Of a DNA stretch of 64,000 nucleotides, positions 14,094 through 19,941 are shown piece after piece. Numbering within the stretch: position 1 is the stretch's first letter; each line of letters opens with the position of its first letter. The notes below the pieces were generated by a model that saw only the letters and a program-made list of their open reading frames with translations, was not told the DNA's origin and did no database searches. The position numbers and the translations under genes are program-made. This stretch comes from Pseudomonadota bacterium (GTDB lineage Bacteria; Pseudomonadota; Alphaproteobacteria; Micropepsales; Micropepsaceae). Location: contig JAFEEQ010000003.1 in NCBI GenBank assembly GCA_018241025.1, positions 124,001-188,000 on the forward strand, written 5' to 3'.

Positions 14094-15017
14094 ATGGCGA
14101 TGATCGGAACCGGCGACAAGGCCGCACCCAGCCCGCACATCAAGGACAGCAGCACGGCGACCTTCCAGGCGGACGTGCTCGAGGCCTCGCGCGAGGTGCC
14201 GGTGATCGTCGATTTCTGGGCGCCGTGGTGCGGGCCGTGCAAGCAGCTCGGGCCGGTGCTGGAGAAGGTCGTCGCCGAGGCGAACGGCGCGGTAAAGCTG
14301 GTCAAGATCAACAGCGACGAGAACCAGATGCTGGCGCAGCAGCTCCAGATCCGCTCGATCCCGACGGTCTATGCCTTCAAGAACGGGCAGCCGGTCGACG
14401 GCTTCATGGGTGCCCTGCCCGAGAGCCAGGTACGCGCCTTCGTCGCGCAACTCGCGGGTGCCGCAGGTGACGGCCATGGCGGCCACGACCATACCGAAGA
14501 AGTGCTCGCCATCGCGCAGGAAGCCTTCGACGCCGGCGATATCGGCCAGGCGGCGCAGGCCTTCGCGCATGTGCTGCAGGACGAGCCCGGCCAGCCCAAG
14601 GCCGTCGCGGGTCTCGCCAAATGCTATCTGAAGAGCGGCGATCTGGAGCGCGCCAAAACGACCTTGCAGCTCGTCCGGCCCGACGGTGCCAACGACGAGG
14701 CGATTGTGGCGGTTCAGGCAGAGCTCAAGCTGCGCGAGCAGTCGGCCGAGGCGGCAAAAGGGCTGGATGCGGCCAAGGCGAAAGTTGCCGCGGACCCGAA
14801 GGACCTGCAGGCGCGTTACGATTATGCGCTGGCGCTGGACGGCGCGGGCGACCGCGAGGCGGCACTGACGGAGCTGTTGGAGATCGTCCGGCGCGACCGC
14901 AAGTGGAACGACGAGGCGGCACGCAAGCAGCTCGTCACGCTGTTCGAGGCGATGGGTCCGACCGATCCGATGACGATCGATGCGCGGCGCCGCTTGTCCT
15001 CGATACTTTTTTCCTGA
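14094..15017 (+). CDS. cnoX: CnoX/YbbN-type chaperedoxin (thioredoxin + TPR)
   Basis: This is a 307-residue protein. A thioredoxin domain occupies about residues 20-125 with an intact active site WCGPC (Cys46, Cys49) and the cis-Pro in RSIPTVYAF. From about 135 to the end there are TPR-like helices (LAIAQEAFDAGDIGQAAQAFAHVL and similar). The E. coli homologue lacks the full CxxC, so this one should retain redox activity as well as holdase activity. It starts at the ATG preceded by AGGAAGCAGCCCC. It heads a tight rightward cluster with LON-domain, Trm112 and DUF971 genes, an arrangement seen in many alphaproteobacteria and consistent with protein quality control. Confidence 0.93.
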   Translation: MAMIGTGDKAAPSPHIKDSSTATFQADVLEASREVPVIVDFWAPWCGPCKQLGPVLEKVVAEANGAVKLVKINSDENQMLAQQLQIRSIPTVYAFKNGQPVDGFMGALPESQVRAFVAQLAGAAGDGHGGHDHTEEVLAIAQEAFDAGDIGQAAQAFAHVLQDEPGQPKAVAGLAKCYLKSGDLERAKTTLQLVRPDGANDEAIVAVQAELKLREQSAEAAKGLDAAKAKVAADPKDLQARYDYALALDGAGDREAALTELLEIVRRDRKWNDEAARKQLVTLFEAMGPTDPMTIDARRRLSSILFS

Positions 15018-15023
15018 GGTGGC

Positions 15024-15674
15024 ATGCCCGGCCGTTATCATGTGATCGAAGACCTGCCGCGAACGATCGGCATTTTTCCGCTAAGCGGTGTTCTTCTCCT
15101 GCCGCGCGGACAGCTGCCGCTCAACGTGTTCGAGCCGCGCTATCTGTCGCTGGTCGATGCGGCGATGTCCGGCGACCGGATCATCGGCATGATCCAGCCG
15201 CAGGACCCCGAGGACCAGACGCTGAAGCCCAGGCTGAGCAGCGTGGGCTGCGTCGGACGGGTGACCGCCTATCGCGAGACGGAAGACAATCGCTATCTCA
15301 TCACGCTGTCGGGAATCTGCCGGTTCCGAGTCGAGACCGAGGTCGCGGTGGCGACGCCGTTCCGCCAGGTGGCGGCAGACTATGCGCCCTTCGCCGGCGA
15401 CCTCGCCGAGGGCGACGACGAGACTTTCCCGCGCGAGCAGATGCTGGAAGCGCTCAACGCCTATCTCAAGCGGCGTGAGCTGAAGGCCGATTGGCGCAGC
15501 GTGATGAATGCGCCGGCGGAAACGCTGGTGAATGCGCTCGCGATGCTGTGCCCGTTCGAGCCGAGCGAGAAACAGGCGCTGCTCGAGGCCCCAAGCTGGG
15601 GCGAACGCGTGTCGACCCTGCTCGCCTTGCTCGAGATGTCCGGCGCGGCGAACGGCCCACACAGCATGAACTGA
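15024..15674 (+). CDS. LON N-terminal (substrate-binding) domain protein
   Basis: This 216-residue protein has only the N-terminal domain of Lon protease. The signature is [34 protein letters not shown] near the start, followed by GCVGRVTAY and [13 protein letters not shown]. No AAA+ or protease domain follows. Stand-alone proteins of this kind are common next to the chaperedoxin gene in alphaproteobacteria and may act as substrate adaptors; the biochemical role is not established. It is six bases after the chaperedoxin stop. Confidence 0.92.
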
Positions 15675-15678
15675 GACC

Positions 15679-15870
15679 ATGCAAACCGATCCCAAACTGC
15701 TCGAAATCCTTGTCTGCCCCGTCACCAAGGGCACGCTCCGCTACGACCGCGAGAAGGCAGAGTTGATCAGCCGGCAGGCGGGACTCGCCTATCCGATCCG
15801 CGCCGGGGTGCCGATCATGCTGGAGGGCGAGGCGCGGAAACTGACCGATGCCGAGCGCGACGCGACATGA
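15679..15870 (+). CDS. Trm112-family protein
   Basis: This 63-residue protein has the Trm112 pattern [18 protein letters not shown], then [21 protein letters not shown] with the Ile-Pro-Ile-Met-Leu ending. In other organisms Trm112 is a zinc-ribbon activator of methyltransferases; here only one cysteine of the ribbon remains, as is usual in bacterial copies. It starts four bases after the LON-domain gene and its stop overlaps the next start. Confidence 0.9.
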
Positions 15871-16205
15871 GCGCGCCCTGGCCGACGGAATTGCGCCTCA
15901 ATGCGGCGAAGAACCAGCTCACCGTGGAATTCGACGGCGGAGAGCGTTTCGTCCTGCCGGCAGAATATCTGCGCGTCGAGTCGCCCAGCGCGGAAGTGCA
16001 GGGCCACGGGGTGGATCAGAAGCAGATCGTCACGGGCAAGAGCGGCGTCACGATCCGGGCGCTGGAGCCCGTGGGCAACTATGCCGTGCGGATCGTGTTC
16101 GACGACGGGCATGACAGCGGGCTCTATTCCTGGACCTATCTCCATGAGCTCGGCCGCGAGCAGCGCGCCAAATGGGCGGCTTATCTCAAAGCGAGCCGGC
16201 AATAG
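15867..16205 (+). CDS. DUF971 (gamma-butyrobetaine hydroxylase-like N-terminal) domain protein
   Basis: This 112-residue protein overlaps the Trm112 gene by four bases (ATGA). The sequence contains the DUF971 hallmarks: [36 protein letters not shown] and the ending [23 protein letters not shown]. In larger enzymes this fold is the zinc-bound N-terminal domain of carnitine-pathway hydroxylases. The stand-alone form has been tied to iron-sulfur protein assembly and cofactor handling, but its exact role is uncertain. Confidence 0.92.
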
Positions 16206-16267: not shown

Positions 16268-17176
16268 GTGAGCAGCGAGCGCGACAAGAAAGGGCCGCCG
16301 ACGGCCAGTGCGCTGGTGCAGGCACGGCGCGGCCAGCGCGTCGCCATCGTCCGGGGCCAGGACCAGAGCCGCTATACCGATATCTATCATGCGGTGCTGA
16401 ACGCGCCGTGGTGGGTGTTCTTTCTGGGGCTCGCGGTTTTCTTTGCGTTGATCAATGCGGTCTTCGCCCTGCTCTATATCGCCGACCCGCAGGCGCTGGC
16501 GCATGCGCGGCACGGCAATTTCTGGGACGCCTATCTGTTCAGCGTCGAGACCATCGGCTCGGTCAACTACACGGTGTTCGTGCCGCAGACGACGTTTGCC
16601 AATGTCATAGTGTCGATCGAGGCGTTCTTCGGCATCCTGACCATCGCGCTGTTCACCGGCATCATCTTCGCGCGCTTCTCGCGGCCTTTCGCCCGGATCG
16701 TGTTCTCGCGGGTCGCCGTCATAACGCCGTTCGACGGCGTGCCGACGTTGATGTTCCGGGCCGCGAACCAGCGCGGCAACCAGATCCTGGATGCGGAAAT
16801 CAGGCTCTCCATGGCCTGCCAGAAGACGACGCGCGAAGGTATCACGATGCGGCGCTTCGAGGATCTGAAGCCCTCGCGCGAGCGAACCTCGCTGTTCGCG
16901 CTGTCCTGGACGATTATGCACCGCATCGACCGCCACAGCCCGCTCTACGGCATGACCTTCGAGCAGATGCTGGATCAGCAGGTCGAGATCATCGCGATGC
17001 TGAGCGGCACGGACGAGACCCTGGCGGACCGCGTCTATGCCCGCCATTCCTACCGGCCCGATTGCATCCAGTGGAACCGGCATTTCGTGGACGTCATCTC
17101 GGTCTCGCCGCGCGGCCTTCGCGTGGTCGATCTGACGCGGTTCCACGACACCGAAGAGATCACGCCCGCCCCTTAG
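16268..17176 (+). CDS. KirBac-type inward-rectifier channel homologue with an altered selectivity filter
   Basis: This 302-residue protein starts at a GTG directly behind GGCAGGG. In order it has a slide helix, TM1 (WWVFFLGLAVFFALINAVFA), a pore helix, TM2 (IEAFFGILTIALFTGIIFA), then FARFSRPFARIVFSRVAVITPFDG-like linker. The C-terminal cytoplasmic Kir domain has LMFRAANQRGNQILDAEIRL and DETLADRVYARHSY. That layout is the whole KirBac architecture. The filter is not normal: after SVET (91-95) comes IGSVNYTVF (96-104), so the TVGYG signature reads S98-V99-N100-Y101-T102. Both filter glycines are lost while flanking residues (SVET, PQT) are conserved. It may be a non-selective or sodium-permeable channel, or a non-conducting sensor. 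Confidence 0.9.
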   Translation: MSSERDKKGPPTASALVQARRGQRVAIVRGQDQSRYTDIYHAVLNAPWWVFFLGLAVFFALINAVFALLYIADPQALAHARHGNFWDAYLFSVETIGSVNYTVFVPQTTFANVIVSIEAFFGILTIALFTGIIFARFSRPFARIVFSRVAVITPFDGVPTLMFRAANQRGNQILDAEIRLSMACQKTTREGITMRRFEDLKPSRERTSLFALSWTIMHRIDRHSPLYGMTFEQMLDQQVEIIAMLSGTDETLADRVYARHSYRPDCIQWNRHFVDVISVSPRGLRVVDLTRFHDTEEITPAP

Positions 17177-17252
17177 CGCGCTGGGATAGGGCGGCTTTTC
17201 GGGGCAAATCCGGCTTGTGAGGGGAGAGAGGCGTCGTTATGGTCGCCGTCCC

Positions 17253-17858
17253 ATGGAACCGTTCAAGAAGCTCGAAGGCGTCGCGGCGCCCCTGCCCATG
17301 ATCAATGTCGACACCGACATGATCATCCCCAAGCAATTCCTGAAAACGATCAAGCGGACCGGGCTCGGCAGCGCGCTTTTCCACGAGATGCGGACGCGCG
17401 AAGATGGGAGCGAGAACCCGGATTTCGTGCTCAACAAGCCGGCCTATAAGGGCGCGCAGATCCTGGTCGCGGGGGCGAATTTCGGCTGCGGCTCGAGCCG
17501 CGAGCATGCGCCCTGGGCGCTGCTCGACTTCGGCATACGCTGCGTGATCTCCACCAGCTTTGCCGACATCTTCTACAACAACTGCTTCAAGAACGGGATT
17601 TTGCCGATCGTCGTATCGCAGGAGACGCTCGACAAGCTGATGGACGATGCCGAACGCGGCGCGAACGCGCGCATCTCGGTCGATCTGGAAGCGCAGGAGA
17701 TCCGCGGCCCCGATGGCGGCTGCGTGAAATTCGAGGTCGATCCGTTCCGCAAGCAATGCCTGCTCAACGGCTGGGACGACATCGGGCTGACGCTGCGCAA
17801 GGAAGACAAAATCTCCGACTTCGAGGCGAAGCGGCAGCGCGAGATGCCCTGGGCCTGA
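17253..17858 (+). CDS. leuD: 3-isopropylmalate dehydratase small subunit
   Basis: This 201-residue subunit pairs with LeuC to isomerise 2- and 3-isopropylmalate in leucine synthesis. The signature is [25 protein letters not shown], with [15 protein letters not shown] at the N-terminus and [11 protein letters not shown] in the middle. The start is ATG 17253. leuC is not in the window. leuB lies about 1 kb downstream on the same strand, with an enoyl-CoA hydratase relative and an inverted repeat between them. Confidence 0.96.
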
Positions 17859-17946: not shown

Positions 17947-18687
17947 ATGAGCGAAGTCTTGCTGCGCGAACACAAGGACGGGCTGTTGACGCTGACGCTC
18001 AACCGGCCGGACAAGCTGAATGCGCTGTCCTTCGAGAGCTTCAAGGCGCTGGCGGCGGCGGTGGACTATGCGGCGGCGAATGTGGCGACGGTCGGCTGCG
18101 TGCTGATCAAGGGCGCGGGGCGGAGCTTCTGCGCCGGCAACGATCTCGGCGATCTCGGCGGCGTGTTCAACGACGGCGACAATTCGCGCTTCCGCAGCGA
18201 CACGGTGGAGCGGCTCGCCAGCCTGCCGATGCCGGTGGTGGCGCAGGTGCATGGCCATTGCATGACCGGCGGTCTGGAACTGGCGCTCGCCGCCGACATC
18301 ATCATCGCGGGCGAGAGCGCGCGCTTCGCCGACACGCATGGCAAGTGGGACCTCGTGCCGGTGTGGGGGCTTTCGCAGCGCCTGCCGCGGCGGATCGGAC
18401 GGGCGAAGGCGCTGGAGATGTCATTCAGCGGGCGGCTCTATAACGGACAGCACGCGGCGGAGATGGGGCTGGCGAATTTCTGTGTCGCCGATGCGGAGCT
18501 GGACGCGGCGGTTGCGGCCTTTGTGCACGATGTGCTGGGGAATTCCTGGCGCTCCTCGCGCGCGATCAAGAAGCTGGTCGACGAGACCGATGGGATGGCG
18601 CTGAAGGCGGGCCTTGCGCACGAAGTGCATCGCTCGGAAGGGCGCGGGCCGGAGACGGCGGAACGGCTCGCGAGGATGCGGAAGTAA
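17947..18687 (+). CDS. Enoyl-CoA hydratase/isomerase family protein with altered active site
   Basis: This 246-residue crotonase-fold protein starts at an ATG preceded by GGGAGAATGCC. The CoA and oxyanion segments are present: GRSFCAGNDLGDLGG and VAQVHGHCMTGGLELALAADI, where the first catalytic-position Glu is kept. The second, in the FxxPExxLG motif of hydratases, reads FADTHGKWDLVP, so His sits at the Glu position. Similar FADTH-type members exist in actinobacteria. They are not safely called hydratases, and may be isomerases or hydrolases. It sits between leuD and leuB, but nothing in its sequence ties it to leucine synthesis. Confidence 0.85.
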   Translation: MSEVLLREHKDGLLTLTLNRPDKLNALSFESFKALAAAVDYAAANVATVGCVLIKGAGRSFCAGNDLGDLGGVFNDGDNSRFRSDTVERLASLPMPVVAQVHGHCMTGGLELALAADIIIAGESARFADTHGKWDLVPVWGLSQRLPRRIGRAKALEMSFSGRLYNGQHAAEMGLANFCVADAELDAAVAAFVHDVLGNSWRSSRAIKKLVDETDGMALKAGLAHEVHRSEGRGPETAERLARMRK

Positions 18688-18715: not shown

Positions 18716-18807
18716 CTTCGAGGGCCGCTTCGCGGCCACCTCAGGGTGACGATAAGTTAGGGCTCCACTCTCGTCATGCTGAGGTGCGAGCGAAGCGGGC
18801 CTCGAAG
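18716..18807. repeat. Imperfect 37-bp palindromic intergenic repeat
   Basis: The arms 18716-18752 and 18771-18807 are reverse complements at 31 of 37 positions with an 18-base loop. They carry the elements CTTCGAGG, CGCTTCGC and CCTCAG. The whole unit lies in the 150-base gap before leuB. Such units are dispersed in many alphaproteobacterial genomes and fold into long hairpins in RNA. Confidence 0.8.
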
Positions 18808-18837
18808 AACGCACGACAATCAGACAGGATGACCCCC

Positions 18838-19941
18838 ATGACCTACAAGCTACTTCTCACACCGGGCGACGGCATCGGGCCGGAGGTGATCGAGGACACC
18901 AAGCGCGTGCTCGGCTGGTTCGCGAAGAACCGCAACATGGCGTTCGAGACCGAGGAAGCGGCGATCGGTGGTATCGCCTATGAGACGCTGGGCACGCCGG
19001 AGCCGGATGCGACGATCGAAAAGGCGAAGAAGGCCGACGCAGTGCTGTTCGGCGCCGTTGGCGGGCCGCAATGGGACAAGCTGCCGTTCGACAAGAAGCC
19101 GGAGCGCGGACTTTTGCGTTTGCGCAAGGACCTTGGGTTGTTCGCCAATCTGCGTCCGGCGATCTGCTTCGATGCGCTGAAAGATGCGTCGAGCCTGAAG
19201 CCGGAGCTGGTATCGGGGCTCGACATCCTGATCGTGCGCGAGTTGACCGGCGGCGTCTATTTCGGCGAGCCGAAGGAGATCACGACGCTGGCCGACGGAC
19301 AGCAACGCGCGGTCGACACGCAGGTCTATACGACGAGCGAGATCGAGCGCATCGCGCGCGTCGCTTTCGAGTTGGCCCGTGTGCGGGGCAACAAGGTGTG
19401 CTCGGCCGAGAAGAACAACGTGATGGTCTCGGGGGTGCTGTGGAAGCAGGTGGTGCAGAAGGTGCACGACGCGGAATATCCCGACGTCGCGCTCTCGCAC
19501 ATGCTGGCGGACGCGATGGCGATGCAGCTGGTGCGCGCGCCCAAGCAGTTCGACGTGATCGTGACCGACAACCTGTTCGGCGATATCCTGTCGGACGAGG
19601 CTGCACAGCTCACCGGTTCGCTCGGCATGCTGCCAAGCGCCTCGCTGGGCGCGAAGGATGCGGACGGCAAGCAGCTTGCGCTCTACGAGCCGATCCACGG
19701 CTCGGCGCCGGACATTGCCGGCAAGGGCGTGGCCAATCCGATCGCGTGCATTCTGTCGTTCGCGATGTGCCTGCGCTATTCGCTGGGCCGCGGGGAAGAC
19801 GCGACGCTGCTGGAGAAGGCCGTGGAACGCGCGCTGGCGGAAGGCTATCGCACGCCGGACATCATGCAGGACGGCATGACGAAGGTCGGAACGGCGGAGA
19901 TGACGGCGCAGATCATGAAGGCGCTGGATAAGTCCACCTGA
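18838..19941 (+). CDS. leuB: 3-isopropylmalate dehydrogenase
   Basis: This 367-residue enzyme oxidises and decarboxylates 3-isopropylmalate. Motifs are [13 protein letters not shown] at the start, the substrate-binding run [18 protein letters not shown], the Tyr/Lys regions [11 protein letters not shown] and CSAEKNNVM, and the metal and NAD segment [20 protein letters not shown]. The ATG 18838 is chosen because AGGA lies eight bases before it; the ATG nine bases earlier is too close. The palindromic repeat just upstream may affect read-through from leuD. Confidence 0.96.

Follow-up and report, generated by a model that had tools for sequence, protein, structure and literature searches.

A KirBac-type channel gene of Rhizomicrobium with S-V-N-Y-T in place of the TxGYG filter, at a locus where relatives carry either GYG or NY[S/T]

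TxGYG is treated as a near-fixed signature of potassium channels, and a channel gene that lacks it raises the question of what its pore lets through and by what route the signature was lost. Such a gene lies in the 64,000-nucleotide stretch of DNA analysed here (the window). A first-pass annotation, made from the sequence alone, had described it as a Kir-family channel of complete KirBac layout, with a filter that could be aligned unambiguously and had lost both glycines. Both statements are borne out. The IRK_C match, the alignment with KirBac3.1 and the helices of an AlphaFold2 model agree on the layout, and the pore aligns with that of KirBac3.1 without a gap, S-V-N-Y-T standing opposite T-I-G-Y-G. 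The codons are given in Table 1; the range originally assigned (16541-16590) takes in the filter and its flanks.

Table 1. Features of the Kir gene and its surroundings, in window positions
Feature	Position	Strand	Basis or remark
Thioredoxin-TPR protein, conserved neighbour	14094..15017	+	Pfam, synteny; start codon chosen by us
LON substrate-binding domain protein, conserved neighbour	15024..15674	+	Pfam, synteny
GBBH-like_N (PF06155) protein, conserved upstream neighbour, synteny marker	15867..16205	+	Pfam, synteny
Kir-type channel gene, 302 aa, GTG start	16268..17176	+	Open reading frame; Pfam and KirBac3.1 alignment
First membrane helix (TM1), residues 48-71	16409..16480	+	AlphaFold2 model
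Pore helix, residues 85-97	16520..16558	+	AlphaFold2 model
Filter codons TCG GTC AAC TAC ACG (S-V-N-Y-T), residues 98-102	16559..16573	+	Replaces TxGYG
Second membrane helix (TM2), residues 109-137	16592..16678	+	AlphaFold2 model
Cytoplasmic Kir domain; IRK_C match, residues 144-299	16697..17164	+	Pfam PF17655; strands in AlphaFold2 model
Aconitase C-domain protein, neighbour in many loci	17217..17858	+	Pfam, synteny
Enoyl-CoA hydratase family protein, neighbour in some loci	17947..18687	+	Pfam, synteny
Isopropylmalate/isocitrate dehydrogenase family protein, neighbour in many loci	18784..19941	+	Pfam, synteny

The cytoplasmic domain of the Kir/KirBac structural family is recognized by Pfam (IRK_C, PF17655, E 7.5e-29, above the cut-off), and the two membrane helices, pore helix and slide helix follow from the KirBac3.1 alignment and the model. 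Ion_trans_2 is barely above its cut-off (22.6 vs 22.5 bits), and the Kir transmembrane model PF01007 remains under it (17.2 vs 22.7 bits), the gene being missed when its own genome is searched with that model. By sequence the top solved relative is KirBac3.1 of Magnetospirillum magnetotacticum (E about 1e-68), a K+-selective channel of the same architecture which differs in its TIGYG filter. The AlphaFold2 model, built on a 96-sequence alignment, has a mean pLDDT of 85.6 (about 82-85 near the filter), short helices at residues 34-37 and 39-45, and a beta-rich cytoplasmic part. With this model Foldseek likewise ranked KirBac3.1 first (E 1.8e-32), the whole-chain superposition being loose (TM-score 0.53, rmsd 10.5). 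The window gene is the sole Kir gene of its genome. Contig C18 of the same genome carries (L118, 997-2214) a canonical K+ channel with the filter TVGYG and Ion_trans and cNMP_binding domains, so the loss of the filter is not genome-wide.

Pores that descend from K+-type filters yet do not select among cations are familiar from the NaK and CNG channels, which keep the first filter glycine and have no Kir domain. A Kir channel without TxGYG is not new as a kind either, because the NirBac proteins are already known. NirBac1.1 and 1.2 (Anaeromyxobacter) and NirBac2.1 (Gemmatimonas) resemble the window protein in being KirBac-type with a Kir domain and a filter unlike TxGYG; the entire pore loop of the first two is unrelated, and the filter of the third reads TTGTD (PMC4607889). 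In the family described here the change is confined to the filter, which becomes NY[S/T], and it is found in another phylum and in many species, with GYG relatives at one locus. According to the 2015 NirBac paper, which also names NaK, NirBac1.1 and 1.2 assemble as tetramers and let several monovalent cations through in liposomes, and its authors suggest that the pore loop is an evolutionary hotspot (PMC4607889). TbIRK of Trypanosoma brucei is a Kir channel with the filter GGYVG and is K+ selective (K/Na about 7); by its authors' BLAST it is not close in sequence to anything outside the trypanosomatids (PMC5429665). It shares with the window protein the lack of TxGYG, but it is eukaryotic, and its glycine-rich alternative is not found here, there being no glycine among residues 98-102. 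The first-pass statement that no Kir family with such a filter had been described thus fails for the loss of TxGYG as such, given NirBac and TbIRK, and holds for the exact motif as far as the open-licence PMC papers go. The main text of the NirBac paper mentions neither NYT, NYS nor Rhizomicrobium, the genus to which the window gene is assigned below (PMC4607889). In the open-licence PMC literature we found neither the NY[S/T] motif, nor a Kir channel of Rhizomicrobium, nor switching of filter type at one locus; motif, lineage and the switching between GYG and non-GYG at a single locus are, within that literature, what is new here.

A protein search with the window Kir covered 5.8 billion proteins and gave 6945 relatives; among the best 120 of these, a set that includes the window's own protein, there is no GYG. 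One relative, from other sources (P0003, largest contig 545 kb), shares 89% identity and likewise reads SVNYT. The first-pass annotation had held that TVGYG throughout the close homologues would speak for a local mutation or a sequencing error, and a shared filter for a conserved subfamily. A conserved subfamily is what was found, since the closest relatives are all non-GYG; more distant congeners include both types. Two further searches were seeded with GYG-bearing relatives from Rhizomicrobium, and rows were merged at 97% identity and then, where the filter was equal, at 85% or 80%. Merging at 97% left 305 rows, 93 of them GYG-type (one GFG) and 212 non-GYG, which is not a random sample, having been collected around three queries and genome loci including cyanobacteria. 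The commonest filter cores among them were SINYS (86), SIGYG (60), SINYT (45), TIGYG (11), SVDKS (11), TVGYG (10) and TLGYG (8). The non-GYG filter is mostly SI-N-Y-[S/T], with Asn in 185, Tyr in 184 and Ser or Thr in 203 of the 212 rows; Asn, Asp or Ser occupies the first glycine position in 207. Five loci that were partial or unrelated (L021, L022, L093, L096, L097) were dropped before trees and counts.

Several filters depart further. The 11 SVDKS rows (e.g. P0092, P0097, P0099, P0111, P0114) form a sub-lineage with Asp and Lys in the filter, and one relative, P0112, has one additional residue (SVDDKS). L010, L031, P0110 and L020 have filters shortened by one residue (SVNS, SVNT, SLNS and SSNA occur), and L056 reads AGAGG inside an otherwise GYG clade.

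The Kir proteins at two loci (L108, L110) are 100% identical to those of Rhizomicrobium electricum and R. palustre, for which reason the genus is taken to be Rhizomicrobium (Micropepsaceae). Of the order, which comprises one family, 96 genomes were covered, and 42 of them have a Kir gene. Full-length copies, one per genome, occur in 40 of 69 Rhizomicrobium genomes, 29 non-GYG and 11 GYG; G005 has an extra Kir fragment of 80 residues and G438 a weak second match (25% identity) to something else. Two genomes of a sister genus are GYG. No Kir gene was found in the other 29 of the 69 genus genomes, four of which are rated 100% complete (G015, G030, G035, G427), and the gene therefore looks dispensable in the genus. 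A scan of named genomes, with patterns taken from the window's own subfamily, gave 61 loci with relatives; distant loci (L059-L083: Caulobacteraceae, cyanobacteria and others) are GYG. All 18 full-length Kir genes that the class and phylum samples yielded beyond the order are GYG, a count which excludes two genomes with partial matches. This suggests that the non-GYG Kir arose independently of NirBac.

The two filter types share one gene neighbourhood. Synteny was compared at 56 loci, representing 38 distinct Kir sequences with some species present twice. In 49 of the 56 loci (17/17 GYG, 32/39 non-GYG) or, by distinct sequence, in 12/12 GYG and 23/26 non-GYG, the marker closest to Kir on the upstream side is the PF06155 gene, at a distance from Kir that ranges from a 27-base overlap to 2630 bases. 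Wherever the stretch is long enough the LON-domain and thioredoxin-TPR genes lie upstream of it. The marker was not seen at L035/L107, where the stretch has no upstream sequence, or at L098, with 1.5 kb upstream; L100 and L104 are without it, and it is present in their longer copies L024 and L031. The neighbourhood of L041/L109 is really different, since the marker is missing over 3.1 kb. Downstream of Kir follow the aconitase C-domain gene, which we take to be leuD-like, sometimes the enoyl-CoA hydratase gene, and the dehydrogenase gene, presumably leuB-like; or else pyrD. We read the GYG and non-GYG genes as orthologues in place. A functional partner was also sought in the neighbourhood; the neighbours, ordinary metabolic and protein-quality genes, gave no lead.

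The Kir trees were built without residues 84-114, so that their shape does not depend on the filter or the residues around it. A 68-row tree comprised 94 rows less 4 distant and 22 redundant ones. The 204-row tree omits L057, L058, L079-L082, L084, L085, L087, L088, L091, L092, L094 and L095, and the 85-row tree omits these and L020. The latter set consists of genome loci, including some on contigs of <10 kb, and hand-picked proteins on contigs of at least 10 kb. For a tree of five flanking genes 35 of 47 loci were kept, namely those with both thioredoxin-TPR and LON matches and not near-identical. The filter type must change 7 times on the 85-row tree (6 forced by well-supported branches), 10 times on the 204-row tree (5 forced) and 6 times on the flanking-gene tree (5 forced). 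In two-tree AU tests with groups named by filter type, whose p-values are strong rather than exact, a single non-GYG clade is rejected on the 85-row tree (cost 143 log-likelihood units, p-AU 2.6e-6) and on the flanking-gene tree (p-AU 1.8e-46), and the latter also rejects as single clades the 11 ingroup GYG loci (p-AU 3.8e-57) and the 5 SIGYG loci (p-AU 1.6e-5). One clean non-GYG clade, against which the first tree already pointed, is thereby rejected. For the GYG group P0187, P0148, L013 and P0132 a single clade has p 0.024, or 0.007 when joined with the 11-row clade; P0148, L013 and P0132 alone are not rejected as one GYG clade (p 0.23), and the number of events is accordingly uncertain.

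These results also bear on artefact. An error of sequencing, a local mutation or a chimeric assembly might be suspected, since short metagenome contigs supply many of the homologues and the closest pair with opposite filters (L009/P0182, 82%) depends on a contig of 991 bases. However, SINYS occurs in the cultured R. electricum and R. palustre and TLGYG in 'Rhizobiales bacterium dw_265', and the switching persists both in the set of genome loci and contigs of at least 10 kb and on the flanking genes, which rules out metagenome chimeras as its source. With the non-GYG best relatives (best 120 of 6945), the trees and the cultured isolates, local mutation or error is ruled out as well, and we give artefact as a whole practically no weight.

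The direction of change was modelled with the trees rooted on GYG outgroups. A one-rate reversible model is ahead of a loss-only model (root fixed as GYG) by 12.8 log-likelihood units on the 85-row tree and 20.8 on the 204-row tree, and by a weak margin of 3.8 on the flanking-gene tree. On each of the three the reconstructed common ancestor of almost all rows from the genus is non-GYG, with P 0.99 or more; for a mixed clade of nine loci the state at its base is ambiguous on the flanking-gene tree (P(GYG) 0.40). If regain is disallowed, 13, 20 and 11 losses are needed (85-row, 204-row and flanking-gene trees, respectively), mostly to the same N-Y-[S/T]. In one possible history the filter turned to NY[S/T] at the root of the genus and GYG arose anew at this one locus on several independent occasions, the scaffold toggling between a non-selective and a K+-selective state; to this history we give slightly less than an even chance.

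Species might instead have exchanged pore-loop segments, which would switch the filter with no point changes in place and leave the function as proposed below. Around the pore loop, GYG loci generally match other GYG loci best, and residues 90 and 96 differ by filter type. In this region L033 is more similar to L112 than to L030 or its other kin, and L048 has a GYG locus as its nearest match, which does not hold for the remainder of the L048 gene; for some genes, such as these two, exchange is possible. Against it as the general route, the GYG groups have different flanks (TFGSIGYG, TIASIGYG, TLGTLGYG), and GGC TAC GGC is three bases from AAC TAC AGC, with plausible single-step intermediates among the rows (Asp or Ser at the first position; SINYG, SVNYG). 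We consider it improbable.

The filter codons are under purifying selection in 27 close non-GYG pairs (pN 0.056, pS 0.267; whole gene pN 0.143, pS 0.415); in 14 close GYG pairs the filter pN is 0. Over all 406 non-GYG pairs the identity of the filter is about equal to that of the whole gene (0.643 vs 0.620), and it is 0.788 over 66 GYG pairs. The odd filter is thus kept over short distances and drifts over long ones. Some non-GYG members tolerate Lys, Glu, Asp or one-residue deletions in the filter, and Lys, Glu, such deletions or AGAGG could mark a relaxed pore. Among the 212 non-GYG rows 187 have Leu at residue 90 (16535-16537), a position held by Phe, Arg, Gln or Tyr in most of the GYG ones; residue 96 (16553-16555) also differs between the filter types. 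Co-change of residue 90 with the filter was not significant (a mean of 3.7 of 6 independent pairs the same way, 0 opposite, p 0.125).

For the function, the first-pass annotation had offered either a changed ion selectivity or a pore turned into a membrane sensor. A membrane-anchored Kir domain that senses lipid or ligand, with a pore no longer conducting, would account for the strong conservation of that domain and for the filters with charged residues or one-residue deletions. It fits poorly with the selection on the filter codons, with the retention of the pore helix and TM2, and with intact GYG filters nested among the non-GYG ones, and we regard it as unlikely. Changed selectivity appears the better fit, since this lineage also has intact GYG filters on one and the same scaffold and locus.

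Our preferred reading, with a probability of roughly 0.58, is that of a KirBac-type channel of Rhizomicrobium at one orthologous locus that carries GYG or NY[S/T], with a likely early loss and repeated switching back, the NY[S/T] form being predicted as a weakly K+/Na+-selective, probably Kir-gated pore for monovalent cations. Loss of K+ selectivity with conduction kept is predicted from the NirBac1.1/1.2 precedent and from GIRK2, in which Ser at the first filter glycine (G154S) abolishes K+ selectivity (PMC9001731). The weaver and G154S forms of GIRK2 resemble this family in having a polar residue at that glycine, Ser occurring here too (SISYT, SVSYS); they differ in being disease mutants with the second glycine kept (PMC9001731). 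Mechanistically, the pore helix, TM2 and cytoplasmic domain would be retained while Asn mostly took the place of the first filter glycine and Ser or Thr that of the second. Such replacements would break or widen the K+-favouring sites formed by stacked backbone carbonyls, with the remaining filter still lining a cation path through which Na+ probably passes along with K+; gating would probably remain with the Kir domain. On the evolutionary side, we consider an early loss of the filter likely, followed by more than one return to GYG.

The NY[S/T] filter might, on the other hand, stay K+ selective by another route, its K+-favouring geometry kept. Asn is the non-glycine residue that best tolerates the left-handed backbone adopted at the first filter glycine, and in the non-GYG rows that position is Asn, Asp or Ser (207/212) and the Tyr is kept (184/212). 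TbIRK is a precedent for K+ selectivity without TxGYG, but its filter keeps three glycines (PMC5429665) and the window filter none; the second glycine is replaced by Ser or Thr in 203/212 rows, and the GIRK2 result speaks against selectivity as well. We judge this reading as doubtful as that of a sensor with a non-conducting pore.

With TxGYG replaced in most of its species and present at one locus in others, the genus offers natural matched comparisons, in which scaffold and gene neighbourhood are the same and the filter is opposite. These allow one to ask what changes together with the filter when selectivity is lost or regained, residues 90 and 96 of the pore helix being candidates, and which pressure would favour a leaky Kir channel. 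The NirBac theme grows with this locus from three cases to a large family.
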